64,000 bases of DNA from Gemmatimonadota bacterium (GTDB taxonomy: Bacteria > Gemmatimonadota > Gemmatimonadetes > Gemmatimonadales > GWC2-71-9). This document shows, in pieces, positions 8,254 to 37,253 of the stretch. How positions within the stretch are numbered: position 1 is the first letter of the stretch; every line of letters begins with the position of its first letter. The notes beneath the pieces are model-generated. The model was not told the DNA's origin. It did not search any database and was given only the letters and a program-made list of their open reading frames with translations. The DNA is taken from the NCBI GenBank assembly GCA_003222085.1, contig QHUK01000018.1, forward strand, positions 1 to 64,000. Reading direction: 5' to 3'. A program made the translations under genes and the position numbers.

Positions 8254-9588
8254 ATGAACGGCATTCTCGCAGGCCAGGTGGTACGGGCAGGGCGACCGGG
8301 GCAGCCCGCCTGGACACCGGTCTTCATCGCGTTCCTTGCGTACGCGTTCGTCATCTTGACCTACCGCGTTCCCATCGGCACCGCCGTGATGGCCGCCGCC
8401 CTCATGGGCCTGATCCTGCAACGGCACGCCGTTCGCGTCCCCACATTTCTCTGGCTGTACGCGGCCTGGCTCGGCTGGTCCGGCGTCGGGCTTGTGACGA
8501 GCGACTATTCGGAGGCGGTACAGCTCACACTCATCGAGCAGATCAAAGTTCTGCTGGTGGCGCTCGTGGCGGCGAACGCGCTGCGTACCGGGACCCAAAT
8601 CCGCCATTTCATGATCTTCATGCTCGTCAGCTACGTCTTGTTTCCCGTCCGCTCCACGTTGGTGAACTACTTCATCACCGGGAATACGCTGTTCGGACGG
8701 GCCATTGGCCCGTTCATCTACTCGAATCCAAACGATCTGGCAGCGCTCACGATCTTGATGCTGGGGCCGACGCTCGCGCTCTGGGCAAGCGCGCCGCGCG
8801 GCAGCCTTGTCCGTTGGGCGGGCGTGGCGGGGGCTGCACCGCTCATCCTGGTCATCGTGCTCACGCAGTCCCGTGGTGGGTTCCTCGCGCTGGCAACGAT
8901 CGCCTTCCCCTCCGCCGTCACGCTCGCGCGACGGCGACCGCGCGCGGCCATCGGGTTCGCCGCGCTCCTGGCGCTGGGGTTGTACCTCGCACCGGCCGGC
9001 TTTTGGAAGCGCATGCAAGGCCTGGAGAAGGGCACGAGCGTCGCGACAATCAGTCAAATGGACCCCGAAGGGTCCGCGGGACAACGGTTCGCGGTGCTGC
9101 AGACCGCCCTCCGCATCGTGCGCGATCATCCGATCCTTGGCGTCGGACTGGGAGCGTATGGCCTGGCGAACGCCCGGTACAATCCCGCCCTGGGGGATTT
9201 GGATACACACAATACCTATCTGAACGTCTTGGCGGAGAACGGCGTGCCGGGCCTCATACTCTTCTTCGCGCTGGTGATCAGCGTGCTGCGCACGGTGCAT
9301 GATACCCGCCGCCGCGTCCGGCGCGCCTTGCCCGCTCAGGCCGAGATGCTGCGATGGCTGGAAATTGGATTGATCGGGTTTCTCATCGCCGCGGTGTTTG
9401 GCTCTCAGTCCAAACTCGCGCTCTTCTACGTTTACCTCGCGCTGCTCTGGTGCACATCGCGAGCCGTGCGCGCGCAGATCCCGCCCGCGAGCCCCGCCGC
9501 CGTCCCGCTACCCTTCCCGCTCGATCGCACGATGACCGCGGTCGATCGACGTCCCGGCCCGGGCGACCCGCGCTCACGGCCGGCGTAG
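8254..9588 (+). CDS. O-antigen polymerase/ligase-like membrane protein (Wzy/WaaL type)
   Basis: The ATG at 8254 follows a GAGG element and lies 11 bp after the amidotransferase stop; the open frame upstream is only an out-of-frame overlap. The 444-residue protein has about 10-12 hydrophobic segments and the Wzy_C signature in a periplasmic loop: GVGLGAYGLAN followed by THNTYLNVLAENGVPGLI, where the conserved His-Asn pair is typical of O-antigen ligase family proteins. It would polymerise or ligate lipid-linked oligosaccharide in the periplasm, pairing with the flippase at 11008. The last ~50 residues are Pro/Arg-rich and probably cytoplasmic. Whether it is polymerase or ligase cannot be told from sequence alone. 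Confidence 0.85.
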   Translation: MNGILAGQVVRAGRPGQPAWTPVFIAFLAYAFVILTYRVPIGTAVMAAALMGLILQRHAVRVPTFLWLYAAWLGWSGVGLVTSDYSEAVQLTLIEQIKVLLVALVAANALRTGTQIRHFMIFMLVSYVLFPVRSTLVNYFITGNTLFGRAIGPFIYSNPNDLAALTILMLGPTLALWASAPRGSLVRWAGVAGAAPLILVIVLTQSRGGFLALATIAFPSAVTLARRRPRAAIGFAALLALGLYLAPAGFWKRMQGLEKGTSVATISQMDPEGSAGQRFAVLQTALRIVRDHPILGVGLGAYGLANARYNPALGDLDTHNTYLNVLAENGVPGLILFFALVISVLRTVHDTRRRVRRALPAQAEMLRWLEIGLIGFLIAAVFGSQSKLALFYVYLALLWCTSRAVRAQIPPASPAAVPLPFPLDRTMTAVDRRPGPGDPRSRPA

Positions 9589-10794
9589 CGACGCAACGGC
9601 TCGGCGCTGCGAGCCGCCGAGAAGACCGCTCGCTGCCCCGCACCAACCCAGCAGAGGCAGCCCCGCACACCCCGACACAATGGGGAGCACCGCGAGGATC
9701 ACTCCCGTACCCACACTGGCGACTACAAGCGCCCCGCGTGAGCTCACGGACGTCAGATATCCGAGCGGCCAGAGTAAGACGGCCATCCAACCCGCGGTCA
9801 ACAATCTGGTCCAGGACCCTGTCGCTCTTTCCGTGGGAGTGAACAGGCGCCACGCGTCTCCGGGACCGAGACGTGCTTCTCGGATGACGGTGCCAACGTT
9901 CGTCACGATGACGATCCGGTAGGAAAAGGACCGCACGAAGAGGCGTATCCCGACGGGCTCGCCGGCCATCACCGGCATGGCATGGCGGAGCCACACCGAG
10001 TGACCGCGCAGGCGAGCGCGGTCACTCGCGGAAGGGAGATGCAGGTGGAGATCGCGGTCTCGTTGCTCGAGCCACATCCACCCTGGTCCGCTCGGCAACC
10101 ACGCGACCACGATTTGGGCCAAGCCGGTGTCGGGTCGGCCCGACAAGAGGTCGACGGCGATCTCCACCGCCTGCTGGTCGGGGACATCGAGCCACTGGTG
10201 CATCGTGGCTGGCACTCCGTCGACCCGCACCGCGTTCAGGGAGCCCGTGAAGGGGACATACTGCGTCGTGTCGGTGCTTCCTTCGGTCCATTGCAGCGTC
10301 CGCGGCAGCGGCACGGCCTGCATTGCCATCCCCACGCCGAGGCACGCGACCAGGAGCACGCTATAACCGATCGCGACGCGCCGGGCGCGCCGGGGCGCTT
10401 CAACCACCCTGCGCCGCAGGCCAGGCAGGGCGATCCCCACCGCTCCCCCTAGTGCGTTGGTGAGAATGTCTGACATGCTCGCCACACGCCCGGGGATGAA
10501 CCCGTGTTGCAACCACTCGACCCCGATCGTGGTCGTCAGAGCGACGGCGAGGGCCAGGTACGCCCGCAGCCCGGCGCGAGACAGCGCCCATCCTAGGGGC
10601 ACGAACAGCGCGACGTTCGCCACCGCGTCGGCGAGGGCGTAGTCGCCGCACCCCAGGCAAAAAAAGGGGATCTCGTCGCCGCGCATGCCGTGCGTCGGCA
10701 TCGGGACCAGCGTGGCGGCGGCCACCAAGCCCAGGGCGAGGGCAACCGGAGCCCAAGTCACGATGCCCGTCCGGGCTGAGGACGAAGGTTCCAC
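9574..10794 (-). CDS. VanZ-family membrane protein with a large extracytoplasmic domain
   Basis: No ATG fits; GTG codons at 10794 (used here, 406 residues) or 10761 are plausible starts. The N-terminal ~130 residues are VanZ-like: transmembrane stretches, the NVALFVPLGWAL segment and a GVEWLQHGFIPGRVASMSDI-type motif ending in DILTNALGG. A ~170-residue soluble region follows (beta-rich, WLDVPDQQAVEIAVDLLSG and SYRIVIVTNVG), which looks like a concanavalin/LamG-type sandwich, and then 2-3 further transmembrane helices. VanZ-like proteins are common in surface-polysaccharide loci but their role is unsettled. The gene opposes its neighbours and overlaps the polymerase 3' end by 15 bp. Confidence 0.75.
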   Translation of the reverse strand: MEPSSSARTGIVTWAPVALALGLVAAATLVPMPTHGMRGDEIPFFCLGCGDYALADAVANVALFVPLGWALSRAGLRAYLALAVALTTTIGVEWLQHGFIPGRVASMSDILTNALGGAVGIALPGLRRRVVEAPRRARRVAIGYSVLLVACLGVGMAMQAVPLPRTLQWTEGSTDTTQYVPFTGSLNAVRVDGVPATMHQWLDVPDQQAVEIAVDLLSGRPDTGLAQIVVAWLPSGPGWMWLEQRDRDLHLHLPSASDRARLRGHSVWLRHAMPVMAGEPVGIRLFVRSFSYRIVIVTNVGTVIREARLGPGDAWRLFTPTERATGSWTRLLTAGWMAVLLWPLGYLTSVSSRGALVVASVGTGVILAVLPIVSGCAGLPLLGWCGAASGLLGGSQRRAVASLRRP

Positions 10795-13575: not shown

Positions 13576-14667
13576 ATGTCCGCGACCCTGAGCCTGTCCC
13601 GCCGCTTCCTGCTCCGGGTGATGGGCGCGGAGATTCTTGCGCCGGCGCTCCGCACGTTGGGGCGCGGCCTCCTGTCGATCTTTACGCTCCATCGCTTCAC
13701 GGACCCGGACCTGGGTGTCGTGGGGCACGACCCCGCTCTCCTACGCTATCACCTCGCGTACCTCCGGCGCCATCACTACCGGCTCTTCAGCCTGACCGAC
13801 GTGGTCAGACAGATTGAGAACGGCGGCACCGGGGGCTGGGGGGGGGGCGCGCCCGCCGTCGCCTTCACGGTGGACGACGGGTATGCCGGCTTCGCCCGCA
13901 TCGCCGCGCCCATCTTCGCCGAGTACGACTGTCCGGTGACGTTGTTCGTCACGACGGGCTTTCTCGACGGGCAGCTCTGGTTGTGGTGGGATCGCGTCAC
14001 CTACCTCTTCAAGCACACCCAGCGTTCCTCGCTCGTGTTCCGCTTGGGAGGAGAGGAACGCGCGTATCGCTGGTCGACGTCGGGGGAGCGGGACGAGGCG
14101 CAGCACGACGTGCTCCGGCGCCTCGAGTGGATCGACGCGCCCCTGCGGGAGGCGACGATCGCCGGGCTTTCCCGACAGTTCGACGTGGAGGTACCCGCGA
14201 GCCCTCCGCCCGCGTGCGCCCCCATCAGCTGGGACGAAGTCCGCCGCACGGCGAAACTCGGCGTGACGTTCGGTCCTCATACGGTGACACACCCGATTCT
14301 CAGTCTGGCGAGCGAGGACGTCTGCCGCTGGGAGATCGAGGAATCGTGCCGTCGGTTGCGCCAAGAGACAGATGCCTGGGTCCCCGTCTTCTGCTATCCG
14401 AACGGCGAGCCCCGGTCGTTCGGGCAACGGGAGGTCGAGGCGACGCAACGCATGGGCTGCCGGGCCGCCTTGACCACCGTGCGCGACTACGCTGCCGCGC
14501 GTCACGCTCGGCCCCAGGGAGCGCTGGAGCGGTTCGCGCTTCCCCGCTTCCCCTACCCGGACGACACGCCCCACTTCGTGAACGTGGTCGCAGGCCTGGC
14601 CCGTCTCAAACAGAGGCTGCACCGGCTGCACGGTGGCGTTCTCCGACCAGGGCTAACCTCAGCGTAA
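13576..14667 (+). CDS. polysaccharide deacetylase (NodB homology, CE4-like)
   Basis: The 363-residue protein starts one base after the previous stop. The NodB domain begins near residue 90: motif 1 is FTVDDGY (usual T-F-D-D-G, catalytic-base Asp and metal Asp), motif 2 is H-x3-H in GPHTVTHPIL. The C-terminal motifs are less clear. CE4 enzymes remove N-acetyl or O-acetyl groups from sugars with a Zn ion. Residues 1-85 are an extra N-terminal region with a hydrophobic start, so the protein may be membrane-associated. A run of ten G at 13838-13847 just before motif 1 encodes the Gly-rich stretch GGTGGWGGGA; slippage there would remove the catalytic domain. Confidence 0.85.
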   Translation: MSATLSLSRRFLLRVMGAEILAPALRTLGRGLLSIFTLHRFTDPDLGVVGHDPALLRYHLAYLRRHHYRLFSLTDVVRQIENGGTGGWGGGAPAVAFTVDDGYAGFARIAAPIFAEYDCPVTLFVTTGFLDGQLWLWWDRVTYLFKHTQRSSLVFRLGGEERAYRWSTSGERDEAQHDVLRRLEWIDAPLREATIAGLSRQFDVEVPASPPPACAPISWDEVRRTAKLGVTFGPHTVTHPILSLASEDVCRWEIEESCRRLRQETDAWVPVFCYPNGEPRSFGQREVEATQRMGCRAALTTVRDYAAARHARPQGALERFALPRFPYPDDTPHFVNVVAGLARLKQRLHRLHGGVLRPGLTSA

Positions 14668-24420: not shown

Positions 24421-24822
24421 TCATGCTTCCAGGAACTCGATGAGCAGTTTCTCCCGCGTGTACACCCAGGCAATCCGGCGCCCGTCAAAGGCGACGGCAG
24501 GAAGCGGCGGCTTGACCACCAGCCCCCCGTTGGAGCGACTGAGGCTCAACTGTGCTTCCAGACTCGGTACTTCGTAACACAGGTGGTGGAGGCCGCCGCC
24601 CCGCTCCAGGAAACGAGAGACCGGTGAACCGGGACCGACGGGCTCCACGAGCTCGACACTGGGATCCTGCGGCCGCGCGCCGCGGAGAAACGCGACGTTG
24701 ACCTGCTGCAAGGGATCGTGGGTGATCTCCCCGCTCCACGTCGTGCCGATGGACCGGGCGAAACCCGGCGCGGCATCTCGAATAGAAGCTGTGACGAACC
24801 CTACGTGGTCGAGGCGTTGCAC
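24421..24822 (-). CDS. VOC (glyoxalase-fold) family protein
   Basis: GTG 24822 begins QRLDHVGFVTASI, the typical first beta-strand and metal-binding His of VOC proteins; a second His occurs in GGLHHLCYEV and a Glu near the end (KLLIEFLE). At 133 residues it is the size of methylmalonyl-CoA epimerase or glyoxalase I monomers with two beta-alpha-beta-beta-beta modules. VOC enzymes catalyse metal-dependent epimerisation, isomerisation or ring opening. Lying 12 bp after an ACP and after an FkbH-like gene, it may act on an ACP- or CoA-bound acyl unit (for example epimerise its alpha carbon), but this is inference. Confidence 0.75.
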   Translation of the reverse strand: MQRLDHVGFVTASIRDAAPGFARSIGTTWSGEITHDPLQQVNVAFLRGARPQDPSVELVEPVGPGSPVSRFLERGGGLHHLCYEVPSLEAQLSLSRSNGGLVVKPPLPAVAFDGRRIAWVYTREKLLIEFLEA

Positions 24823-24834
24823 TGCCGCGGGGCG

Positions 24835-25065
24835 CTAGGCGTGGAGCTTGCGCTCGAGCACCTGTCTGATGTCCGGGTATGAGAGCATGGCTTCGATCTC
24901 GCCGACCTCGAAGGAGACCGCGAACTCCTGTTCGAGGGCCAGCACCAGCTGAATGTGATTGAGCGAGTCCCAGGCCGCGACGCGATCTTGGCACGTCGAG
25001 TCGTCGACCGACTTGGGGTTGAGGTCGAGTACATCGGCCATAATCTGCTTGATCCGGCGCTCCAC
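24835..25065 (-). CDS. acyl carrier protein (first of two)
   Basis: The start is GTG 25065, preceded by AGGAG at 10-bp distance; the longer open frame upstream overlaps FkbH and is not ACP-like. The 76-residue protein has the helix pattern of an ACP and the phosphopantetheine site Ser in WDSLNHIQLVLALEQEF. It sits 25 bp downstream of the FkbH-like gene and 12 bp upstream of the VOC gene. In known systems FkbH-type enzymes load a three-carbon unit onto a stand-alone ACP, so this is the likely partner. Confidence 0.85.
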   Translation of the reverse strand: MERRIKQIMADVLDLNPKSVDDSTCQDRVAAWDSLNHIQLVLALEQEFAVSFEVGEIEAMLSYPDIRQVLERKLHA

Positions 25066-25090
25066 GCGTGCCTCTCCTGAGATTCGCGGC

Positions 25091-26998
25091 TCAAGCTTCG
25101 GGCGCGGGGTTGCCATCGGCGACGGTGACCCGCATCCAGGCCGGCCACGGTACCCCGCCGCCCGCGAGCGACAGGCGCCAGGCGGTCTCACCGGAGTCGC
25201 CATTCGCCACCTGGGTGAAGCCGTGGTGCGCAAACAAGTCCCGGACCGGCACGTTCTTGGCGGTGGGAACGATGCGGCCGCGCACCTCGCTCAAGCCGCG
25301 CCGGCCGGCCTGGGCGCACACGAACGCCAGCATGGCCGTCTCCACCGAACGACCGATGACCCGGCAGCTCAACAGCAGCGTGTCGATATCCAGTGCCGTG
25401 CGGTCCGGGCGCGCCATCAGCAACCCGACGATGCCGTTGTCGCCAAAGCGATCGCGCACGCCCACCGTTGCCAGTAACCATTCTCCAGTGCGCATTCGCT
25501 CGACGAGCTCGGCTTCGGTATAGCGCACGGTCGTCACATTGAACTGGTTGGTCTTCTGCGTCAGCTGGGCGGCACGCGCCAGCGACGCCTTCGTCACCGG
25601 CGCGATGGTCACCTCCATCCCCAGGCCCCGGTAGAACTCCTCCAGTGAGCCGCTCTCCGCCCGAAGGGCTTCCGCCTGATCGCGTTGCCGATAGAGGTCG
25701 CCGCGGCGCGAGTCTTCGGCCGACAGGGCGAGGGCGTCGAACAGCCCGTCCTCGAGCAGCGCGTCCACGAAAAGCTCGGGTTGCTGCGGCAGACAAATCA
25801 CCTTCACCATGGGGAGCGCCTGCGAGACTTCCTCACATTCGACGGGATTGTCGTCGATGAAGACCATATGCTCAAGACCGATGTTGAGCTCCCGCGCAAT
25901 CTGCGGCAGGGATTCGGTCTTCGGCTGCCAATGGATCTGCAGGCTGGAAAAGTGCTCGCGTTTGAGCACCATGTTCGTGTTCTGTGCGAACACCTCGTCC
26001 ACGTCGGCGACGTTATTCTTGCTGGCGATCGCGAGGAGCACGCCGCGGCGGGTGAGGCTCAGCAGCTCCTGCTGGAATGCGCGATACGCGCTGCCGGGAT
26101 ATTCGCTGCCCAGTCGGATGCCGTACGGGCCGTCTTCGCCCAGGACCCCCCCCCACAGCGTGTTGTCGAGATCGACGACCACGCACTTCTTGGTCAAGCC
26201 TCGAACGGCGCGACAGTACCTCATGTACTCCGCCGCGAGGTGTCCCCACTGGTCGGCCGCGATCGGCGCACGAGCGTAGAGGCGCATCCGCTCGTCGTAC
26301 CAGCGCGTCGCGCCGAAGCGCGCGACCAGACCGGCGTAGTCGACCACGTACATACCCTGCGCGTCCCGGCACACCGCCGCGAGCGCCTCATTCATGCGGT
26401 GCACCCACTGCGCTTGCCCCCGGGCGAGCTGCGCGTCGAGGATGCCCAGCTGGCGCCGGCGCGGCGGAGCGAAGTTGTGCATCAGGACCGTGGCAGCGCT
26501 CCGACGGCGCAGGGCCTGCACCAGAGCACGCGTTTCGTCGCAGATCTGCCCGATGCAGGCGTTCAGGCTCGCCTCGTCGTGGTCGAGGAACTGATCGTAG
26601 AGCATGGGAGCCCAGTCCTCCCCCTCCACCGCCAGGATCACGAACTCGGGCCCAAAGGCGTACAGCCGGCTGTCGGGATCCACGATCTCCTGGCGGAATT
26701 GGCCGAACCCTCCGCGGTGGATCTGGACGGCCAGCCCGCTCAGAAAACCGTGCACCACGAGCGCCGGCTCGACAAACTCGATGGAAAAGGAGGAGAGGAG
26801 CGCGACCTTTACCGGCGTGAGGGGCGGACTCCAGCTGGTGGCCTTCTCAATCTCCCGCCGGAGAAAGCTCAAGTCCTGAGCGCCGCCTCGGCGCAGCAGT
26901 TCTCGGGCCGCGCGAATGGCGTGGTGGGTGTCGCCCGCCGCGGCCGCGGCGCACACCGCGGCTCGCGCCTCCGAGCGGGCCTCGGAACTAGGCGTCAT
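25091..26998 (-). CDS. FkbH-like HAD-family enzyme (acyl-ACP loading)
   Basis: ATG 26998 overlaps the upstream acetyltransferase by 11 bp. The 635-residue protein has an N-terminal SGNH-like region (VALLSSFSIEFVEPAL, residues ~60-250), a central HAD domain with the nucleophile motif DLDNTLWGG and FIDDNPVE (residues ~275-430), and a C-terminal GNAT-like domain (TQKTNQFNVTT, FGDNGIVGLL, LSCRVIGRSVE). This is the full FkbH architecture. Characterised FkbH-type enzymes convert 1,3-bisphosphoglycerate to glyceryl-S-ACP for polyketide starter or extender units. Here, followed by an ACP, it probably prepares an acyl (glyceryl or derived) group to decorate a sugar. A nine-G run (complement of 26146-26154) falls inside the catalytic WGG motif. 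Confidence 0.88.
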   Translation of the reverse strand: MTPSSEARSEARAAVCAAAAAGDTHHAIRAARELLRRGGAQDLSFLRREIEKATSWSPPLTPVKVALLSSFSIEFVEPALVVHGFLSGLAVQIHRGGFGQFRQEIVDPDSRLYAFGPEFVILAVEGEDWAPMLYDQFLDHDEASLNACIGQICDETRALVQALRRRSAATVLMHNFAPPRRRQLGILDAQLARGQAQWVHRMNEALAAVCRDAQGMYVVDYAGLVARFGATRWYDERMRLYARAPIAADQWGHLAAEYMRYCRAVRGLTKKCVVVDLDNTLWGGVLGEDGPYGIRLGSEYPGSAYRAFQQELLSLTRRGVLLAIASKNNVADVDEVFAQNTNMVLKREHFSSLQIHWQPKTESLPQIARELNIGLEHMVFIDDNPVECEEVSQALPMVKVICLPQQPELFVDALLEDGLFDALALSAEDSRRGDLYRQRDQAEALRAESGSLEEFYRGLGMEVTIAPVTKASLARAAQLTQKTNQFNVTTVRYTEAELVERMRTGEWLLATVGVRDRFGDNGIVGLLMARPDRTALDIDTLLLSCRVIGRSVETAMLAFVCAQAGRRGLSEVRGRIVPTAKNVPVRDLFAHHGFTQVANGDSGETAWRLSLAGGGVPWPAWMRVTVADGNPAPEA

Positions 26999-27848
26999 AG
27001 CAATAGATCCCCTGGTTCGCGAGTGCCTCACATGCGCTCAGCACGTGCCGCGCGCCGACCAATCGCAGCTTCAGCCCCCCCACGCTGGCCTCACGCCAGG
27101 CGCCCCGCTGCCGCAACACGGGAAGCAGCTTCGTGAGGTTGCGCCGCCGCACCAAGACCGGGTCGGACAACCGCGTGTGCGTGGTCCATGTCCGCCCGTC
27201 GGCGTCGACGCTCTCCAGCAGATATTCCTGCTGCGTGAACGGCGAGAACGGCATCCTCGGCTCGAGCAGCTCCTCAACCGTATGGAAAAAGGTCATGACC
27301 TTGACGTCACAGCCGAGAAACAGAATCTTGCCGTCACGATCGAGCAGACGAGCGTACGGGGATCCGACGCCGCAGGGCGTCTTGGCGTGCACGTGGCCCG
27401 CAACCAACGCAGCGGCGTCCGCTCCCCAGACGGCCACGGAGTGCGTGGGGTGCACGCTGCGAATGACCCCGGGCGTGCGGCGGAACAGTTCCGTCAAGAG
27501 CCCCATCCGTGACGGTGTGCGCCTCACGTCGAATACCCGGCGCTGCTGCGCATAGTCCACGGTCGGACCGGTGAACGGCAAGGTCGGCAGCAGCAGCGTG
27601 CCGCCGGGGCCGACGGCCTCCTGAAGAACCGCAAGCACGTCGCTGGGCTTCCCGCTGAACTTTCCAAGGTGATCCAGCGAGCTGTGTACCAGCAGGGTGT
27701 CGCCCGGGGCCACACCGAGTCCACGCACCGCCTGAAGCAGGTCCGACGTGGAAAACGGGCGGCCCCAGCGCGTCGTCGCGAGGCGGAGCCCGCCGCGCAC
27801 GCGGCGCTTTACCCAGGTGCGCACCCGTGACAGTATGAGGGGCGTCAC
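26988..27848 (-). CDS. AAC(3)-like N-acetyltransferase
   Basis: The GTG start at 27848 lies in a GTGA overlap with the upstream gene. The 286 residues match the aminoglycoside 3-N-acetyltransferase family: DTLLVHSSLDHLG, PGGTLLLPTLPF, RSVHPTHSVAVWG with the catalytic His, and GVGSPYARL. In glycan loci this family probably acetylates amino groups of sugar nucleotides or lipid-linked sugars rather than antibiotics. The family uses acetyl-CoA and an antibiotic- or sugar-type amino acceptor. Placement directly before FkbH and an ACP raises the alternative that it transfers an ACP-bound acyl group. Confidence 0.85.
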   Translation of the reverse strand: MTPLILSRVRTWVKRRVRGGLRLATTRWGRPFSTSDLLQAVRGLGVAPGDTLLVHSSLDHLGKFSGKPSDVLAVLQEAVGPGGTLLLPTLPFTGPTVDYAQQRRVFDVRRTPSRMGLLTELFRRTPGVIRSVHPTHSVAVWGADAAALVAGHVHAKTPCGVGSPYARLLDRDGKILFLGCDVKVMTFFHTVEELLEPRMPFSPFTQQEYLLESVDADGRTWTTHTRLSDPVLVRRRNLTKLLPVLRQRGAWREASVGGLKLRLVGARHVLSACEALANQGIYCYDA

Positions 27849-29059
27849 GACGCCACTTCCGTCGTACGGGCACCAGCCACGTGCTCCTCAAGCATCAGTG
27901 CATCAGCGAAGAACTTGGCTGCCCAGTTCACGAAGGTGAGGGGGGTGTAGCGCCCGAAGATAGGCTGGGAGCCCTTGACGCCCCCCCGCAGATCCAGGTT
28001 CGCGGTGTGCAACAGCTGGGTCGCCTTCACGTATCTGTTGAGCCCAAGCGCAGCACTGACGAACTGTGGGTCCCGACACTCCCGCGGCAGGCGCAGCCAC
28101 ACCCCCGCGACCTGTGCGTTTCCGGTCAGGCAGCTGTAGGTCGCATTCGCGCTCCACGTGCGATCGAATTCACCCGGCAGGACACCCCGCTGCTCGAAGA
28201 TCTCCCGGAGGCGTGTGGCGGTCCTGAGTGCCGCCTCCAGGTAGCGGTCGTCCCGCAGGCAACTCCAGGCGCCCATCAGTCCTTCCATCACGTAAGCGAT
28301 CGTATGCGTCAGGGGGACGTTCCACTTGTCCGCCGAAACAAAGAACGCGTTGTGCTCGAACCAACCGTTGTCGTGCTGCTGCGCCAACGTCCATTCCAGG
28401 TTGCGACGGGCGGCGTCGAGGAAGCGCTGCTCGTCGACCAACTGGTACAGTTCTAGTAAGCTCCACGCAGTCCGCACGTCGTAGGCATGAACGACGGTTT
28501 CGGTCTCCGGCGCGTGCTGACGCCACGCTCCATCGGAGTCCTGCCCGTCCGCCAGCCAGTTGCCCGCCCGCACGGCGGCGTCGAGATACCGTTCGTCTCG
28601 GGTTTCCGAAAACGCCCGGCACCACCCCAGCACAACCTGCCCCGTGTTGAACACTGCCGGCGGTCGCTTGCTGCCATTCCCCCTGTAGAACCCGGCCTGA
28701 ATCGCGCCGCTCGGGAGTTGAACCTGGAGTTCCCAATCGGCCATGCGTACGGCGCGCGCGTAGAACTCCGCGTTCGCCGTACGGTGGGCGTAATCGAAAA
28801 ACGTCGGGATGATGTATCCCGTCGTTTCCGGATACGGCGGCAGCCAGCCTCGGAGGAGCGAGTACCCGGCGGAGACTCCACCGCCGCCCCCGCCGCGATC
28901 CTGGGCGCGGCACAGCCATCCCATCGTGGCTTGGAGGTGCTGGCCGGAGTCGCCGGGTGTAGCCGGCCATCTGAACAGATCTCGCCACACCATGGCCGCG
29001 TGCGATGGATGCAGCAGCCGGATCCCCGCGGCGAGTGCCGACAACGGTGCGCGTCTCAC
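27845..29059 (-). CDS. (alpha/alpha)6-barrel protein of a polysaccharide locus, function unknown
   Basis: GTG 29059 is used, 10 bp after the upstream stop; ATG 28993 is an alternative. The 404 residues are built from helix pairs rich in Trp and Gly: TTGYIIPTFFDYAHRT, VFNTGQVVLGWCRAF, NLEWTLAQQHDNGWFEHNAF, HTIAYVMEGLMGAW. This is the toroid seen in GlcNAc 2-epimerases, unsaturated glucuronyl hydrolases and terpenoid/thioredoxin-domain barrels. I do not recognise a specific family. No signal peptide is evident. Its place between a GT2 and an acetyltransferase, with a GTGA overlap to the latter, points to a role in making or modifying the glycan. Confidence 0.7.
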   Translation of the reverse strand: MRRAPLSALAAGIRLLHPSHAAMVWRDLFRWPATPGDSGQHLQATMGWLCRAQDRGGGGGGVSAGYSLLRGWLPPYPETTGYIIPTFFDYAHRTANAEFYARAVRMADWELQVQLPSGAIQAGFYRGNGSKRPPAVFNTGQVVLGWCRAFSETRDERYLDAAVRAGNWLADGQDSDGAWRQHAPETETVVHAYDVRTAWSLLELYQLVDEQRFLDAARRNLEWTLAQQHDNGWFEHNAFFVSADKWNVPLTHTIAYVMEGLMGAWSCLRDDRYLEAALRTATRLREIFEQRGVLPGEFDRTWSANATYSCLTGNAQVAGVWLRLPRECRDPQFVSAALGLNRYVKATQLLHTANLDLRGGVKGSQPIFGRYTPLTFVNWAAKFFADALMLEEHVAGARTTEVAS

Positions 29060-29069
29060 GGGTCTCGCA

Positions 29070-30218
29070 TCACCCGTCCCCTCGATCCGCGAACGTCGGC
29101 CGCGCCGGATCACTCCACACATCCCAGCGTCCGCGCGCGGCGTTCAGTGCCGCTACGACCAGGGCCGCCAGGAGGGCGATACCACTGCGTGCGACGCGCA
29201 AGACTCCGCCGCCGGGAACGGAGGCGGGCCGCACCATCCACGGCAACGTGATGCCCCCCAGCCCCACGACCCCGGCCCAAGGCCCGAACACGAGCAGCAG
29301 GCCGGCGACGAAACTCGACACGGCGAGCGGAGTGAGCAACCGCAGCACTTTGTGGGACATGAACTGCCACCACACGCGGTTCTTCCCCGGATGCAGCACC
29401 CAGGGCATCCAGGCGATCAGCTGATAGTTTCCGGTGAGCGTCCGCACCTTGCGAGCGAGTTCCGTGGCATCGGAGCCCGACCGAACATCGGTGGCCACCG
29501 CCAGGGGAGCAAATCCTACGCGTTTGCCTGCGCGCACCACCTGAAGCGGCACCCAGACGTCATCGAGCAGCAGACCTGGCGGCAGCGGCGACCACAGCTC
29601 CCGTTTGAGCGCGTAGAGCGCACCGCTCACGCCAACCGCACTGTCCCACGCCGCCTCACGCATACGCAACCAGCGCTCGAACCGCCAGTAGCGGTCGTAC
29701 AGGCTATCGGAGCCGCGGGACGAGGCGATGTCGAGCGATCCCGAAACGACTCCCACGTCCGGGGAGGCCAAGGCCGTCACGAGGTGCTCGACGGCTCCGG
29801 GGGCCACATGCTGGCGCACGTCGGTGAACACGAGCACCTCCCCACGGCTCATCGCGACGGCGCAGTTGAGGGCGGCCGCCTTCCCTTGGGGTCGTTCCAG
29901 GACCCGCACCTTGACCCGGTCGTCAGCCAGTGCGGCCAGTGCGGCCACGGCTGCCGGGTCCGGCCCATCGAGCACGATGACGACCTCAGACTCGAGCGGC
30001 ACCGCCTCCAGCAGCTCGGCCACCTTTTCAGCGACTGCGCCCCCCGGGTCACGAGCCGCGATGAGGATCGAGATCAGCCGCGGGCCCGGCCCCGCCCCCG
30101 GTCGGGCGAGGCGCGCCGGCAACAAGCTCACGATCCAGGGATACACGACGTAGGTGTAGGCCCCGTGGAGCGCGCCCAGCCCGAGTAGCAGACCCCCCGC
30201 AGCGGTCGCGTCCGTCAT
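29070..30218 (-). CDS. membrane-anchored glycosyltransferase family 2
   Basis: ATG 30218 forms an ATGA overlap with the upstream glycosyltransferase stop. The 382-residue protein starts with one hydrophobic helix, then a GT-A domain (SILIAARDPGG, VVIVLDGPDP, GKAAALNCAVAMSRGEVLVFTDVRQ, where the usual D-x-D region reads TDVR), the acceptor motif LLLDDVWVPLQVV, and R-K-V-R-T-L-T-G-N-Y-Q in place of Q-x-x-R-W. Two to three C-terminal helices follow. This is the hyaluronan/poly-GlcNAc-synthase-like group, which extends chains at the inner membrane. The product is not predictable. Confidence 0.86.
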   Translation of the reverse strand: MTDATAAGGLLLGLGALHGAYTYVVYPWIVSLLPARLARPGAGPGPRLISILIAARDPGGAVAEKVAELLEAVPLESEVVIVLDGPDPAAVAALAALADDRVKVRVLERPQGKAAALNCAVAMSRGEVLVFTDVRQHVAPGAVEHLVTALASPDVGVVSGSLDIASSRGSDSLYDRYWRFERWLRMREAAWDSAVGVSGALYALKRELWSPLPPGLLLDDVWVPLQVVRAGKRVGFAPLAVATDVRSGSDATELARKVRTLTGNYQLIAWMPWVLHPGKNRVWWQFMSHKVLRLLTPLAVSSFVAGLLLVFGPWAGVVGLGGITLPWMVRPASVPGGGVLRVARSGIALLAALVVAALNAARGRWDVWSDPARPTFADRGDG

Positions 30219-31415: not shown

Positions 31416-32093
31416 TTAATGCCGCACCAACGCTCTCACGAGTTCGCCGACACACCGCTCGATCCGCGCGTACACCCGCTCACATACCGCGGCGTCCTGC
31501 TCGACGGGATCTTCGATCGCGCGTGACGTGGCGGGCAGCGGATCCAGGTCGCCGAGCAGCAGCACATCGCGCGGCGAGCGCCCGAACCGCTCGCAGATGC
31601 TGCGGGCCTGCAGTTCCTCCATTACGACGATGAGATCCGCAGCACGCGCCAGAGCGGCGACGACGAGCTGGGAGCTGTGCCCGGCGAGATCGATCCCGTG
31701 ACGCGCGGCGGCGGCGATGGCGTGGGGCGGTGACGCGCGGCCCGGCGCCGTGAAGCCCGCCGACTCCACGCGCACGGCCCCGGCGCCGCGGCGCTCGAGC
31801 TCCCGCTCCAACACGGCCGCGGCGAAGGGGCTGCGGAAAATGTTGCCGCTGCACAGCACGAGCACGAACGCGGGCGGCCGTCGGGAGCCCAGCGCTGCGA
31901 AAGCCGCTCGGCGGCGAGCGCGGTACAGGAGCCGGTCCCCCGCGCGCCGCAGCCGTCGGAGAAGCTCCGCGACCCAATTTCCTCGCGTCGCCACGCCACC
32001 GGTCCCCGGTGCAGACGACCCGCTGGCGCCACGGCGGGGCTGCACACGAGTGGCGAGGTCGGGCGTCGTGAGTCGGTTGCGCAAGGTGCTCAC
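31416..32093 (-). CDS. low-molecular-weight protein tyrosine phosphatase-like protein
   Basis: GTG 32093 forms a GTGA overlap with the ACP stop. After a ~70-residue basic N-terminal extension (arginine-rich), the LMW-PTP domain begins at FVLVLCSGNIFRSPFAAAVL: the P-loop C-x5-R-S is intact, though the usual second Cys of CxGNxCRSP is Ile. The D-loop region reads IEDPVEQD, so the Asp-Pro pair of the general acid is kept but the aromatic after it is not. Such phosphatases usually reverse BY-kinase phosphorylation in capsule export; no kinase is seen in this window. The N-terminal extension is unusual for the family (typical length ~150, here 225). Confidence 0.8.
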   Translation of the reverse strand: MSTLRNRLTTPDLATRVQPRRGASGSSAPGTGGVATRGNWVAELLRRLRRAGDRLLYRARRRAAFAALGSRRPPAFVLVLCSGNIFRSPFAAAVLERELERRGAGAVRVESAGFTAPGRASPPHAIAAAARHGIDLAGHSSQLVVAALARAADLIVVMEELQARSICERFGRSPRDVLLLGDLDPLPATSRAIEDPVEQDAAVCERVYARIERCVGELVRALVRH

Positions 32094-32383
32094 GCGGCTC
32101 GGACGCCGCCGTTGCACTTGGCATGCAGGAAGCGGGCGATCGCGGCGACCGAGCCCAAGTTCCGTTCCGTGATCTCGTCCTCTTCCAGGGTGCAGCCGAA
32201 CTCTCGCTGCAGAAAGCCGACCAGCTCGATCACACCGATCGAATCGATCACGCCGCCCCCGAACAGTGGATCTTCGTCCTTGAGCGGCCAGTCGGGACGC
32301 ATGTAGAGGAAGTTTTCACGGACGTAGGCTCGCGTGCGGTCTGCGATCACCGCCGGCGTGAACTCTCGCGTTTCGTCGCGCAT
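32090..32383 (-). CDS. acyl carrier protein (second of two)
   Basis: ATG 32383 has a TTGAGGTGAGGA purine-rich stretch upstream. The 97-residue protein has the phosphopantetheine Ser in GGVIDSIGVIELVGFL and an ACP helix pattern (EFGCTLEEDEIT). The N-terminal 40 residues include an aromatic stretch (RENFLYMRP). It differs from the ACP at 24835 (DSI instead of DSL), so the two probably serve different loading enzymes. The adenylating ligase at 35709 is a candidate for charging this one. It lies 23 bp after asnB copy 4 and overlaps the phosphatase gene. Confidence 0.83.
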   Translation of the reverse strand: MRDETREFTPAVIADRTRAYVRENFLYMRPDWPLKDEDPLFGGGVIDSIGVIELVGFLQREFGCTLEEDEITERNLGSVAAIARFLHAKCNGGVRAA

Positions 32384-32406
32384 CGTCCTCACCTCAAGGT
32401 CGCACG

Positions 32407-34392
32407 TCAGGCTGCAGCCGGGGTTTCCACAGGCGCTGGCTCCACGCGGGCGCTCCCCGCCACGCGGGCCCGGACGAGGGCGGGGGCGGGGGCGCCCAGA
32501 AACTCCCGGTGCCACAACTCGGTCGACAGAATCGCGACGAGCGCCTGATTCTCACGGAATCCCTCCGCGCGCCCGGCCCGGCAGCGCCGAACCAATCCAG
32601 CGACGGCCTCTGGATTGAAGATTCCCGTGCGCCGCAGGCTCACGGGATCGAGCAGCGCCTCCACGTACTCCGGCGGCCGCCCGTCGAAGAACGCAGGCAC
32701 GTCCGGCGCCCGATATGGCTGTTTGCGCCTGCGGGCGACGGCCGCCGGCAAGAGGCCGGTGGCCTCCCCCCAGCGTCGCAGGATGTTCTTCTCCCGCAGA
32801 CCCCGCAGCTTGCTGCGCGCCGGAAGCGCGGCCGCGAATTCGACGAGCCGGTGGTCGAGGTAGGGAACGCGCGCTTCGACCCCGTGCGCCATCGCCATGC
32901 GATCCCCCTGCGAGCTGAGCAGATAGGACGAGAGCAGCGTCGTGATCTCGAGATACGCGGCCCGCGCCAGGGGCGACCAGGCCCCGAACCCGGCCGGGAG
33001 GCGGGCGCGCAGCTCGGCCAGGGGGTCGAACGGCCCGAGTCCCGCACGGAATTCGGCCGCGTAGAAGTCCTTGATGCGGGCCGTGAGCTGGAACCGCGGC
33101 AGATGGGAAAACAGCGGATCATCGGGTGAACCCGCGGTCATGAAATAGCCGCGCCAGAAGTCGCCCTTCCCCGACGCGGGGGCGATCCCCGGATACAGCC
33201 CGTCGAGCAGGCGCGGGGGCAAGCGCGATGCCGGCCGACGCCAACACAGCAGCCGGATGATCGCCTCCTTGAACAGGTCGTAGCCGAGAAAGACCTCGTC
33301 GGACCCCTCCCCCGTGAGCACCACCTTGATGCCGTGTTCCCGGACGATCCGGGACAGCAGGTACAGCGGGGCCGGCGCGGTCCGCACGAGCGGTGTCTCG
33401 GTGTGCCGGATGACCTCCGGGAACACGCGGGCGATGTCGCCGCGCCCGATACGCTGCACCGCGTGACGGCTCCGCACATCCGCCGCGACCGCTTGTTGAT
33501 ACGCACTCTCGTCCAGCGTCGGGTCCTCGAAGGTCACCGAGAAGGTCCGCAGGGCGAGCGGGGAGCCCGCCGCCGCGAGCGCGCACACGATGCTCGAATC
33601 GATGCCGCCGCTCAGGTACCCGCCGACCGGTACGTCGGCCTGGAGGCGCAGCCGCACCGCCGAGCGCAACAGCTCGTCCAGGGCCTCGAGCGCGTCCGCC
33701 GGCTCGGTGGCGGCCTCGGCGTAGTCGAGCGCGTAGTAGCGCCGTACCGCGAGCCGCCCGTCCTGCCACCGCGCGCAGCACCCGGGCTCGAGCGCGCGGA
33801 TCCCCCGAAACGGAGTGCGGGGAGGGCGCGCCGCCCAGAACGTGAAGATCTCGTCCAAGCCTTCGGGATCGAGCGCGCGCTCGACCTCGCCCGTGACCAG
33901 CAGCGCTTTCACCTCGGACGCGAAATAGAGATCGCCGTCCCGCTCCGCGTAATACAGCGGCAGGATGCCGAATCGGTCGCGCGCGAGAAACACGGACCCG
34001 GCGCGCCGGTCGTAGATCGCGAACGCGAACTGGCCGTTCAGGCGCTCCAGCATCCGCTCGCCCCATTGCTCGTAAGCGTGCACCAGCACCTCGGTGTCGC
34101 TGCGGGTGCGGAACAGGTGCCCGCGGGCCTCCAGCTCGCCGCGCAGTGCGAGGTGGTTGAAGATCTCGCCGTTGTAGACGATGAAGACGCTGCCGTCTTC
34201 GTTCGTCATGGGTTGCACCCCGCGCGCCAGATCGATCACGCTCAACCGGGCGTTGGTGAGGCCCACCCGGTCGTCGACGTGCAGCCCGAACCCGTCCGGC
34301 CCGCGGTGCCGGATGGCGGACGCCATCCGCTCCAGCAGCTCCGCGGCCACGCCCACTGGGCGCCGGCGCGCGATACCGGCCACACCGCACAT
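32407..34392 (-). CDS. asnB: asparagine synthetase-like amidotransferase, copy 4
   Basis: ATG 34392 shares one base with the stop of the NadE-like gene (TGATG), and gives MCGVAGIA with Cys2 as nucleophile. The 661 residues include RLSVIDLARGVQP, NGEIFNH and SDTEV (glutaminase) and YLSGGIDSSI plus TGEGSDEVFLGY (synthetase). The conserved R-D-R-x-G-x-K-P-L reads RDRFGILPLYY, with Leu in place of Lys; the effect is unknown. Tight coupling to a NadE-like ligase upstream and an ACP downstream suggests the two enzymes act on the same molecule. The last ~30 residues are Ala/Pro-rich and lie beyond the family domain. Confidence 0.88.
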   Translation of the reverse strand: MCGVAGIARRRPVGVAAELLERMASAIRHRGPDGFGLHVDDRVGLTNARLSVIDLARGVQPMTNEDGSVFIVYNGEIFNHLALRGELEARGHLFRTRSDTEVLVHAYEQWGERMLERLNGQFAFAIYDRRAGSVFLARDRFGILPLYYAERDGDLYFASEVKALLVTGEVERALDPEGLDEIFTFWAARPPRTPFRGIRALEPGCCARWQDGRLAVRRYYALDYAEAATEPADALEALDELLRSAVRLRLQADVPVGGYLSGGIDSSIVCALAAAGSPLALRTFSVTFEDPTLDESAYQQAVAADVRSRHAVQRIGRGDIARVFPEVIRHTETPLVRTAPAPLYLLSRIVREHGIKVVLTGEGSDEVFLGYDLFKEAIIRLLCWRRPASRLPPRLLDGLYPGIAPASGKGDFWRGYFMTAGSPDDPLFSHLPRFQLTARIKDFYAAEFRAGLGPFDPLAELRARLPAGFGAWSPLARAAYLEITTLLSSYLLSSQGDRMAMAHGVEARVPYLDHRLVEFAAALPARSKLRGLREKNILRRWGEATGLLPAAVARRRKQPYRAPDVPAFFDGRPPEYVEALLDPVSLRRTGIFNPEAVAGLVRRCRAGRAEGFRENQALVAILSTELWHREFLGAPAPALVRARVAGSARVEPAPVETPAAA

Positions 34393-35408
34393 CAGGAGCC
34401 CCCTCCCCCGTCCCGGGCCGCGACGCCGACGTCCGGCACCGGCGCCACCAGCAACGAGGTGAGATGGAGCGGACGGGTGACGGCGCGCTTGTGCTCGATC
34501 TCGTGATAGGCGCGCTCGATTTGCTCGACCCGATAGCCCAGGTCGGCGGCCACGGCGGCCGTGCTGCGCCCTTCGTTCCGGGCCTGCAGCACCACGTCCA
34601 GCATCCCCAGCGGCATCGAGAAAAAGAACTCCTCCTGCGTTTGCGGCAGTGAGTACGTGTCGGTGGTGGGCGTGCGCGCACGGATGGCGACGGGCACTCC
34701 GAGCGACTCGGCCAGCTGGTAGACCTGGCTCTTGTACAGGTGCGCCATCGGCTTCACGTCCGCGAGCCCGTCCCCGCCTTTCACGAAGAACCCCTGGTCG
34801 TATTCCAGGCGGTTGGGCGTCCCGAGCACCGCGTAGTTCAGCCGGTCGGCGTGGTGGTAAGCCAGCATCGTCCGGATGCGTTGCTTGAAGTTCGTGGCGG
34901 CCACGATCTCGCGCAGCTCGCGCGCGGGCAGGCGCACCTTGCGCAGGTTCTGCCCCGGTGGCTGCACGGCGATGGAACACACGTTGAGCCGGTCGGAATC
35001 GAGGCCGCCCCCGTCGAGCACCAGCTTGGAGCGCCATCCCGGACCATAGTCGGGGACGAGACGGCGAACGGCGGCGTCGCGCCGCTCGTAGCATCCGCAC
35101 GCCTCGAGCGTCGCGGTGATGTCTTCGACCAGGAACTCGATCGCGAGCCGTGCGGCCCAGTCACGGGCCAGCGCAAGGCTCTGGGGATCCGACTCCCGCT
35201 CGGGCAACCCCAGCCCCAGGACATGCCCGGGGCCCACCGCCTCCACGGCGAGCGCCGCGCACACCGAACTGTCGACCCCGCCACTCATTGCGACGACGAT
35301 CCCGCCACGTCGCAGCGTCTCGCCGACCTGGACGCGGAGGGTCTGCGCGATCCGTCGCGTTTCCGCCGCCGCGTCGAGCTCCAGCCGATCTACAATCGTG
35401 GTGGACAC
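34392..35408 (-). CDS. NadE-like ATP-PPi synthetase without glutaminase domain
   Basis: GTG 35408 follows GGCGAGGTGCG. The 338-residue protein has the N-type PP-loop MSGGVDSS near residue 42, then NADH-synthase-like features: TNFKQRIRTMLAYHHAD, VLGTPNRLEYDQGFFVKGGDG and MAHLYKSQVYQLAESLGVP. It lacks the nitrilase domain, so it would use free ammonia or ammonia from a partner glutaminase. An ~45-residue C-terminal tail (EIEHKRAVTRPLHLTS) goes beyond usual NadE. Housekeeping NAD synthesis is possible, but coupling to asnB copy 4 inside a glycan locus suggests a paralogue that activates a carboxylate by adenylation and amidates it. Confidence 0.8.
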   Translation of the reverse strand: MSTTIVDRLELDAAAETRRIAQTLRVQVGETLRRGGIVVAMSGGVDSSVCAALAVEAVGPGHVLGLGLPERESDPQSLALARDWAARLAIEFLVEDITATLEACGCYERRDAAVRRLVPDYGPGWRSKLVLDGGGLDSDRLNVCSIAVQPPGQNLRKVRLPARELREIVAATNFKQRIRTMLAYHHADRLNYAVLGTPNRLEYDQGFFVKGGDGLADVKPMAHLYKSQVYQLAESLGVPVAIRARTPTTDTYSLPQTQEEFFFSMPLGMLDVVLQARNEGRSTAAVAADLGYRVEQIERAYHEIEHKRAVTRPLHLTSLLVAPVPDVGVAARDGGGGS

Positions 35409-35708
35409 CGCACCTCGCCTGCACTAGGGAAAGCTCCGCCTCGCCGGCCTCTCCAATTGCAAAGTTCGAGCCTGAGAGTGACATCGGTCGGGCGACCGAC
35501 GGCGCTGGGGGGACACCGGCTATCGGACAACGCGACAAGGGGTTCCGGCGAGCCGATACCGTTTCATCGCGAGCACTCGTGTCGCGCCCGCGCCACACGC
35601 GCCTTGTCGCGGCGGTGTGGACGGCTCGAGACGCACCTCGACTCTGTGCCCTGGTATGCTCGTTGCAATAGCGCGACGAAGCCATACACGGGGGACTGCG
35701 CGTTGTCG
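35409..35708. other. divergent intergenic region between NadE-like and ligase genes
   Basis: This 300-bp stretch separates the start of the 15-gene minus arm from the plus-strand adenylating ligase, so it must hold promoters for both. No gene, hairpin or clear -35/-10 pair is seen. A GGGGGA element at 35691-35696 lies upstream of the ligase start. Confidence 0.5.
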
Positions 35709-37253
35709 ATGGATGCCGGAGCACCTGGCGCGTTGCCCCCTGGGCCGAACGCCGCGTTCCTGTTGTGGGACAGCGCCGCGCGGGGCGAGCGGCCCGCCAT
35801 CGTGGAACGAGGCAGCAGCGTCAGCTATGCGACGCTGCGGGAGCGTGCGGCGGCGATCGGCGCCGCGCTCCGGGCCGCGGGCATCGCGCCCGACGACCGC
35901 GTCGCGATCCTGCTCGAACGAGGCCGGGACGCTGCCGCGGCGTTCTTCGGCACGCTCGCCGCCGGCGCCATCGCCGTCGTCGTGAACGAGGCGCTTCGCC
36001 CCCGCCAGATCGAGCACGTGCTCGCCCACTCGGGCACCCGTTGTCTGATCACGGCGGGAGACCTGCTCGCGCGGCAGCCCCGCCGGCTCGCGACCGACGC
36101 CGTCGTCCTCGACGCGAGCGCCATCCGCGCCGCAGGGGAGCCCCTGGCACCGGTCCCCCGGCTGGGCGACGACGTCGCCCAGATCGTGTACACGTCCGGG
36201 TCCACCGGCCTCCCGAAAGGGGTGGCGGTAAGTCACTCCAACCTCTGGGCCGTCACCAGTGCCGTCGTCGCCTACCTCGGCTTGACCGAAGCGGACCGAA
36301 TCGCGAGCCTTCTGCCGTTCAGTTTCGTGTACGGCGTTGGGCAGCTCTTGTGTGCAGTCGGCGCCGGGGCGGCCCTCGTCGTCGAGCGGTCGCCCCTCCC
36401 GCAACAGATGATCGAGACGATCCGCAGCGAGGGCGTCACCGTGCTCGCGGCCGTGCCGCCGCTCTGGACCAGGCTGTTGCGCGTGCCCGCGTTCGTCGAG
36501 ACGCCTCTCCCCCGGCTGCGGGTGATAACGAACGCCGGTGGGCACCTCCCCGCCGAACGGGTGCGGGCGCTGCGCCAGGCGCAGCCGGGGGCGCGGCTGT
36601 ACCTGATGTACGGACTGACCGAAGCGCTGCGTTGCACCTATCTCCCGCCCGAAGAGCTCGACCGGCGGCCCGAGTCGATGGGCCGCGCCATCCCCGGCGG
36701 CGAGGTCTACGTGCTGCTGGAGGACGGGTCGCCGGCGCCGCCCGGGGAGATTGGCGAGCTGGTGTACCGCGGCCCGACTGTCACGCTGGGATACTGGAAC
36801 GAGCCGGAGCTCACTGCGAGGGTGTTCCGCGCCAATCCTCTGCGACCGCCGGGCGCCCCCGACGCCGAGCGTGTGGTCTTCTCGGGAGACCTGGTACGCC
36901 GGGACGACGACGGATTCCTCTATTTCGTTGGGCGGCGGGATCGCATCATCAAGACCATGGGATACCGCGTCGGCCCCGACGAGATTCTGAGCGTGTTGCA
37001 CGCGTCGGGCGAGGTCGCGGACGCCGTGGTCGTAGGAGAACCGGACGAGACGCGCGGCGAGCGCATCGTCGCCTACGTCGTGCTCGGGGAGCAGGGATCG
37101 CTCGAACGGCTGCAGACCTATTGCGGCCGTGAGCTTCCCCGCTACTTGCAGCCGGCGCGCATCGAGGTGCGCGACGCGCTGCCGCTCCTGGCCAGCGGCA
37201 AGCACGACGTCGAGGCGGTGCGCGCGGCTAGCGGTCGCAGTCCAGGCTGGTAA
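35709..37253 (+). CDS. AMP-forming acyl-CoA/acyl-ACP ligase (ANL superfamily)
   Basis: ATG 35709 (a TTG five bases upstream is an alternative) gives 514 residues. Core motif A3 is YTSGSTGLPKGVAVSHSN near residue 165, A5 is LYLMYGLTEALR, A7 region is VFSGDLVRRDDDGFLYFVGR, A8 is RIIKTMGYRVGPDEI, and the A10 Lys is in LLASGKHD. It activates a carboxylic acid as acyl-AMP and passes it to CoA or a phosphopantetheine arm. It has no carrier domain, so it probably charges one of the two stand-alone ACPs. Substrate not predictable. Its 3' end overlaps the converging GNAT gene by 26 bp. Confidence 0.87.
   Translation: MDAGAPGALPPGPNAAFLLWDSAARGERPAIVERGSSVSYATLRERAAAIGAALRAAGIAPDDRVAILLERGRDAAAAFFGTLAAGAIAVVVNEALRPRQIEHVLAHSGTRCLITAGDLLARQPRRLATDAVVLDASAIRAAGEPLAPVPRLGDDVAQIVYTSGSTGLPKGVAVSHSNLWAVTSAVVAYLGLTEADRIASLLPFSFVYGVGQLLCAVGAGAALVVERSPLPQQMIETIRSEGVTVLAAVPPLWTRLLRVPAFVETPLPRLRVITNAGGHLPAERVRALRQAQPGARLYLMYGLTEALRCTYLPPEELDRRPESMGRAIPGGEVYVLLEDGSPAPPGEIGELVYRGPTVTLGYWNEPELTARVFRANPLRPPGAPDAERVVFSGDLVRRDDDGFLYFVGRRDRIIKTMGYRVGPDEILSVLHASGEVADAVVVGEPDETRGERIVAYVVLGEQGSLERLQTYCGRELPRYLQPARIEVRDALPLLASGKHDVEAVRAASGRSPGW

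Follow-up and report, generated by a model that had tools for sequence, protein, structure and literature searches.

The window analyzed here, a 64,000-nucleotide stretch of Gemmatimonadota contig QHUK01000018.1, carries adjoining genes for an AAC(3)-fold acyltransferase, an FkbH protein, a free acyl carrier protein (ACP), and a VOC-fold metalloenzyme, and the question it raises is what these four proteins could do together. FkbH-ACP is usually taken for polyketide machinery and AAC(3) for drug resistance, and VOC proteins of this kind are named merely "VOC family protein." We found that FkbH, ACP, and VOC form a conserved core that recurs in sugar-coat gene clusters of several phyla. For the window itself, we give an even chance to a glycan-decoration cassette in which FkbH loads a glyceryl group, VOC acts at its C2, and the AAC(3)-fold enzyme transfers the group to a sugar amine.

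Layout of the four-gene module

All four genes lie on the minus strand within 3.4 kb and are transcribed in the order AAC(3), FkbH, ACP, VOC. They encode an AAC(3)-fold (Antibiotic_NAT) acyltransferase of 286 aa (27848-26988, GTG start), an FkbH protein (HAD-IIIC) of 635 aa (26998-25091, ATG start) that is the proposed glyceryl loader, a free ACP of 76 aa (25065-24835, GTG start with AGGAG ahead), and a VOC-fold metalloenzyme of 133 aa (24822-24421, GTG start); the start codons are our choice. AAC(3) and FkbH overlap by 11 bp, and the following spacings are 25 bp (FkbH/ACP) and 12 bp (ACP/VOC). These coordinates confirm the initial annotation of the locus, which had described four contiguous genes in the order acyltransferase, loader, carrier, VOC that overlap or lie within 25 bp of one another.

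FkbH, ACP, and VOC are linked across phyla

Of 101 relatives, 17 had FkbH, and in several of these VOC accompanied it. A VOC profile (A2) was built from five FkbH-adjacent VOC sequences, another profile (A1) being too diverse for genome scanning. Over 394 genomes of the class, A2 gave nine matches of at least 117 bits, separated by a score gap from the rest at 87 bits or less. Every one of the nine lay beside FkbH; five are the profile seeds, leaving an independent count of 4/4. The 87-bit match (G049) had FkbH 1.6 kb away on the opposite strand, and none of the following 20 matches (78-87 bits) had FkbH within its 1.5-kb flanks. Scanning 84,980 species genomes with the VOC sequence only yielded 80 loci, from which two duplicates were removed. 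When these were divided, at a boundary drawn after the result was seen, into 29 closer and 49 more distant loci, FkbH lay within 5 kb of VOC in 23 of the former and in none of the latter. As in the window, ACP is commonly the gene between FkbH and VOC, and the linked loci span Acidobacteriota, Gemmatimonadota, Proteobacteria, Planctomycetes, and Verrucomicrobia.

AAC(3) occurs together with FkbH, ACP, and VOC in four loci, each with a different arrangement: the window, G039 (L038), an Acidobacteria gp13 locus (L082, FkbH-ACP-VOC-AAC3), and a proteobacterial locus (L103, FkbH-ACP-AAC3-VOC, followed by GtrA and GT2). Hexapeptide-repeat, methyltransferase, or GNAT-like genes are found near other FkbH-VOC loci. 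The acyltransferase is the variable member: transferases of several types, AAC(3) among them, are encoded near the core. The initial annotation had asked for a survey of neighborhoods in relatives; FkbH-ACP-VOC linkage stood in that survey, whereas the four-gene unit was not constant because AAC(3) varies. Its idea of a minimal C3 module in a glycan locus lacking a polyketide synthase (PKS) was supported, but the conserved unit is FkbH-ACP-VOC, the full set being found in four loci.

The proteobacterial run (L103:2056-12879) is compact, with the gene order FkbH-ACP-AAC3-VOC-small open reading frame (ORF)-GtrA-GT2 and then a 595-aa protein with no Pfam match. It is flanked by a DUF1451 gene and a queuosine-synthesis gene, one on each side, and looks, from its predicted content, like a self-contained glycan-modification unit.

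The core parts also occur on pPfer1, a complete plasmid (55,292 bp) of Paludibaculum fermentans P105. Genes for an exosortase and a polysaccharide deacetylase lie there next to ACP-VOC, and FkbH (annotated "HAD-IIIC family phosphatase") lies 19 kb away, adjoining a GNAT gene. The plasmid also encodes a flippase, an O-antigen ligase, and glycosyltransferases, and no PKS is annotated in its PLSDB-distributed gene table, which may be incomplete. No earlier description of an FkbH-ACP-VOC cassette in glycan loci was found in a limited search of the open-license literature.

Predicted families and catalytic residues

FkbH matched TIGR01686 with 327 bits (1.2e-97; cut-off 146.65). Its D276-x-D278 motif (the HAD D-x-D) and DD382-383 were invariant among 70-72 relatives, as was C545 (in SCR) among 66. 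ACP matched PF00550 with 28 bits, above the cut-off of 20.8, and the phosphopantetheine Ser34 sits in a DSL motif, the DS of which is invariant in 59 related ACPs. C3 loading by FkbH is a prediction well grounded by family. A phage collection contained FkbH in two unannotated fecal contigs, one of which, a 75-kb record from human feces labeled "Bacteriophage sp.," has a homologue (32%) at MT835480.1:71476-73113. Viral contigs contained no VOC homologues.

VOC matched Glyoxalase_4 with 61.5 bits (1.1e-16; cut-off 27). Assignment as a methylmalonyl-CoA epimerase (MMCE) was not supported, the score with the TIGR03081 equivalog model being 51.8 bits against a cut-off of 114.95. Within the metal set H6/E57/H80/E129, the last three residues are present in 39/39 FkbH-linked sequences and H6 in 37/39, with two gaps. 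This H/E/H/E ligand set is glyoxalase-like (compare Escherichia coli GlxI). By sequence and fold, the closest structures were 3OA4 and 2QH0/3HDP (Clostridium acetobutylicum glyoxalase I), ahead of MMCEs, and a model with a predicted local distance difference test (pLDDT) score of 86 gave template modeling (TM) scores (query) of 0.76-0.84 against 2QH0, 3HDP, 3OA4, and 1JC4. By modeled fold and H/E/H/E positions, the protein is assigned to the MMCE/glyoxalase I branch of VOC metalloenzymes. The FkbH-linked sequences share a signature of D36-P37-Q39, A109, F112, R115, and W119, whereas the residues in MMCE-like VOCs of the class are E34, R109, G111, A112, and F119. In the VOC tree, FkbH-linked members fall near one clade (three label changes), and three groups split with four label changes overall. 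Among the more distant relatives (L107-L155), Lys replaces the metal ligand Glu57 in 27/49; some of their loci repeatedly have genes for an acyl ligase, an ACP, and an asparagine synthase-like protein, and others have unrelated genes.

The AAC(3)-fold protein matched PF02522 with 186.6 bits (6.7e-55; cut-off 25), and its closest solved structure is FrbF (3SMA). A role as an aminoglycoside-resistance AAC(3) was not supported: NF033082 scored best at 109 bits against a cut-off of 270, and other NCBIfam subfamily models were further under their cut-offs. The HP-T-HS and T-x2-H-x2-E motifs are retained in the window protein, and the latter in all five FkbH-linked AAC(3) sequences, this one included, and in two linked to ACP alone. 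Its His and Glu are lost in an AAC(3) paralogue of the same genome (contig C4, lacking an ACP partner) and in a G007 relative. Elsewhere, AAC(3) adjoins ACP without FkbH in G031 and G323 (L170, L173), the second with an AMP-ligase. Taken together, the variable arrangements, the ACP-linked AAC(3) genes without FkbH, and the motif loss in the paralogue and its G007 relative would fit a role of AAC(3) in acyl-ACP-dependent transfer, with VOC modifying the unit in some pathways only. The predicted catalytic residues of the module as a whole are intact.

The paralogue just mentioned is the genome's other AAC(3)-fold gene (L022, G000:C4:34000-52000, at 8695-9777); it is 47% identical, has Y/A for the His/Glu of the motif, as in G007, and neighbors luciferase-like, GINT1_N, ATP-grasp, UDP-glucose dehydrogenase, and two asparagine synthase genes. 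No AAC(3) homologues were found on plasmids at 1e-25.

Proposed pathway and alternatives

As family membership and intact motifs suggest, FkbH would take a D-3-phosphoglyceryl group from 1,3-bisphosphoglycerate and strip its phosphate, and the glyceryl group would pass to the ACP phosphopantetheine, probably via the conserved FkbH Cys. In the least certain step, the H/E/H/E metal site of VOC would bind the glyceryl-S-ACP thioester, and removal of the C2 proton would give a metal-bound enediolate; in glyoxalase I, the metal stabilizes an enediolate (PMC5412262). Reprotonation would most likely yield the L-epimer. Because glyceryl-S-ACP is an alpha-hydroxy-thioester, the product type of glyoxalase I, and the metal site is alike, VOC could exchange the C2 proton and so epimerize D- to L-glyceryl-ACP; this is the reading that we prefer, although we put it at somewhat under an even chance at best. 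The AAC(3)-fold enzyme may then transfer the ACP-bound acyl group to an amine, most likely of a sugar or sugar nucleotide, which would yield an N-glyceroyl sugar, a decoration known in other bacteria, and the surrounding glycosyltransferases would use the acylated sugar for exopolysaccharide. Both the acceptor and the acyl group finally attached are predictions. More tentatively, and slightly short of an even chance in our estimate, FkbH-ACP-VOC may constitute a multi-phylum pathway in which VOC epimerizes or isomerizes glyceryl-S-ACP at C2 and L-glyceroyl, or a C3 acyl group remodeled in another way, is passed to transferases that can replace one another (AAC(3)-fold, hexapeptide, GNAT-like) and that decorate surface glycans.

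Several points weigh against these proposals. Six of the 29 closer VOC loci had no FkbH within reach, two of them at contig ends, and the 29/49 boundary was post hoc. The VOC seeds were first found via FkbH, which biases their nearest relatives to the same context, and the counts are not of independent events because related metagenomes are the source of many Acidobacteriota loci. Most FkbH-ACP-VOC loci are without AAC(3), and G400 (L167) has AAC3-FkbH-ACP in the order of the window without VOC. We infer the VOC chemistry from fold and residues, and, as regards the acceptor amine, no DegT aminotransferase was found on the 110-kb contig that contains the window. The post hoc split is backed by the VOC tree, which separates the groups, and by the differing signature residues.

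A different role for VOC is less likely: it might act as an isomerase like glyoxalase I (alpha-hydroxy-thioester to and from 2-oxoaldehyde hemithioacetal), or otherwise remodel the C3 unit, and the group transferred would then not be glyceroyl. Ni-bound C. acetobutylicum glyoxalase I (2QH0/3HDP), the study of which is cited in PMC5412262, is among the closest structures, the ligand set is glyoxalase-like, and the glyoxalase I product is itself an alpha-hydroxy-thioester. Against an isomerase, no aldehyde-handling downstream enzyme was recognized in the module, and a free 2-oxoaldehyde would be reactive.

Loading and alteration might instead proceed as proposed, with the AAC(3)-fold enzyme transferring to a hydroxyl or a non-sugar amine, which we likewise consider improbable. 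The hexapeptide-repeat or GNAT-like genes near other FkbH-VOC loci suggest that acceptors differ, and the contig of the window has no dedicated amino-sugar aminotransferase; however, solved AAC(3)-fold enzymes, FrbF being the nearest, use amines as their substrate class, and the polysaccharide deacetylase encoded in the same locus (13576-14667) could expose acceptor amines.

It is very improbable that chance alone brought together an ordinary MMCE (VOC) and an ordinary aminoglycoside-resistance enzyme (AAC(3)). Both proteins belong remotely to those superfamilies, but they fall far under the curated cut-offs (52 versus 115 bits and 109 versus 270 bits, respectively), the FkbH-linked VOCs lie near one clade with signature residues distinct from those of MMCE-like sequences, and the linkage recurs across phyla.

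Glycan locus and host genome

The four genes of the putative glycan-decoration cassette are the tail of a longer glycan run, with two glycosyltransferases, a second ACP, an asparagine synthase, and an NAD-synthase-like gene upstream. The window also encodes a Wzx-type flippase, the polysaccharide deacetylase, a heparinase II/III-like protein, and further asparagine synthases, and because of these genes the surroundings are classed, from predicted functions, as an exopolysaccharide-type locus. The gene that precedes AAC(3) (27845-29122, minus strand) has its stop overlapping the AAC(3) start by 4 bp and gave weak pectate lyase and D-glucuronyl C5-epimerase-type matches (Pec_lyase, 33.7 bits; C5-epim_C, 28.5 bits). 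The module ends with VOC; at 24117, 303 bp further on, is the most likely start of the next minus-strand gene, which encodes an NAD-dependent epimerase, and terminator-like matches were at about the chance level.

The genome bin (3.54 Mb, about 93% complete) contains no other FkbH and has three matches to the phosphopantetheinyl transferase (ACPS) family. No PKS was seen in the window, and the bin has two strong full-length ketosynthase matches, both in ORFs of stand-alone FabF size (438-451 aa); therefore, no modular PKS was found in the bin, in agreement with the initial annotation that none is present. Synthesis of a hydroxy- or methoxymalonyl extender for polyketides, the best-known role of FkbH with a free ACP (PMC7489565), is thus already contradicted for this bin and is the least probable reading of all, as that pathway uses two dehydrogenases and an O-methyltransferase, none of which is encoded by the four genes, and none of six scanned ORFs of at least 1000 aa in 0.54 Mb around related loci is a PKS or a nonribosomal peptide synthetase.

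The window contains a second acyl-ACP system (32090-37253), composed of an ACP (about 32090-32383, DSIG motif), an asparagine synthase, an NAD-synthase-like gene, and an AMP-ligase on the opposite strand. The ligase resembles the exosortase-A-associated ligase TIGR03098 (494 bits, under the 592 cut-off), and no exosortase (TIGR02602) was found in the bin.

Significance and comparison with known systems

The linkage gives FkbH-ACP, AAC(3), and VOC a joint, testable role in acylation of surface glycans. It predicts a substrate for an unassigned subfamily of VOC proteins and points to candidate genes for making glyceroyl-sugars, and the P. fermentans P105 plasmid, with its core parts, makes the idea testable outside metagenomes. 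If the proposal is true, VOC would be, to our knowledge, the first enzyme of its superfamily known to use an ACP-bound alpha-hydroxyacyl group as its substrate.

The glycerate-utilization and methoxymalonyl-ACP operons known from polyketide clusters, such as those of tetromadurin (Mad7/Mad8 and Mad14/Mad12), resemble the window in having an FkbH loader beside a stand-alone ACP (PMC7489565). In clusters of that type, the acyl-ACP is delivered to a PKS via FabH-like closure or via two oxidations and a methylation (PMC7489565), whereas the window has VOC and an acyltransferase in place of those enzymes, in a glycan locus. In its probable end product, a surface-glycan sugar with an N-glyceroyl group, the window instead resembles Neisseria, Campylobacter jejuni, and Tannerella. 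Neisseria has a glyceroyl amide on its GATDH sugar, with the PglB2 C-terminal domain proposed to add the group (PMC6959607); di-O-methylglyceroyl pseudaminic acid is described for C. jejuni (PMC3068675); and Tannerella has Pse5Am7Gra, a glyceroyl-decorated glycan sugar (PMC6388019). These three reports describe no FkbH/ACP/VOC route to these sugars. The passages searched in the C. jejuni papers name no FkbH, ACP, or AAC(3) genes, so a parallel with that organism is not used as evidence; a paper on Clostridium flagellar glycosylation mentions neither glyoxalase nor ACP.

C. acetobutylicum glyoxalase I (3HDP/2QH0) and MMCEs are like the window VOC in fold, metal-ligand positions, and thioester alpha-proton chemistry; the window protein differs in its FkbH/ACP partners, in its altered signature residues, and in scoring below the MMCE model cut-off. 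ACP-dependent acylation of an amino sugar is known from butirosin biosynthesis, where BtrI/BtrH bring the acyl group from a free ACP to an aminoglycoside amine. That system differs from the window in its loader, acyl unit, and transferase, and its product is an antibiotic instead of a glycan.

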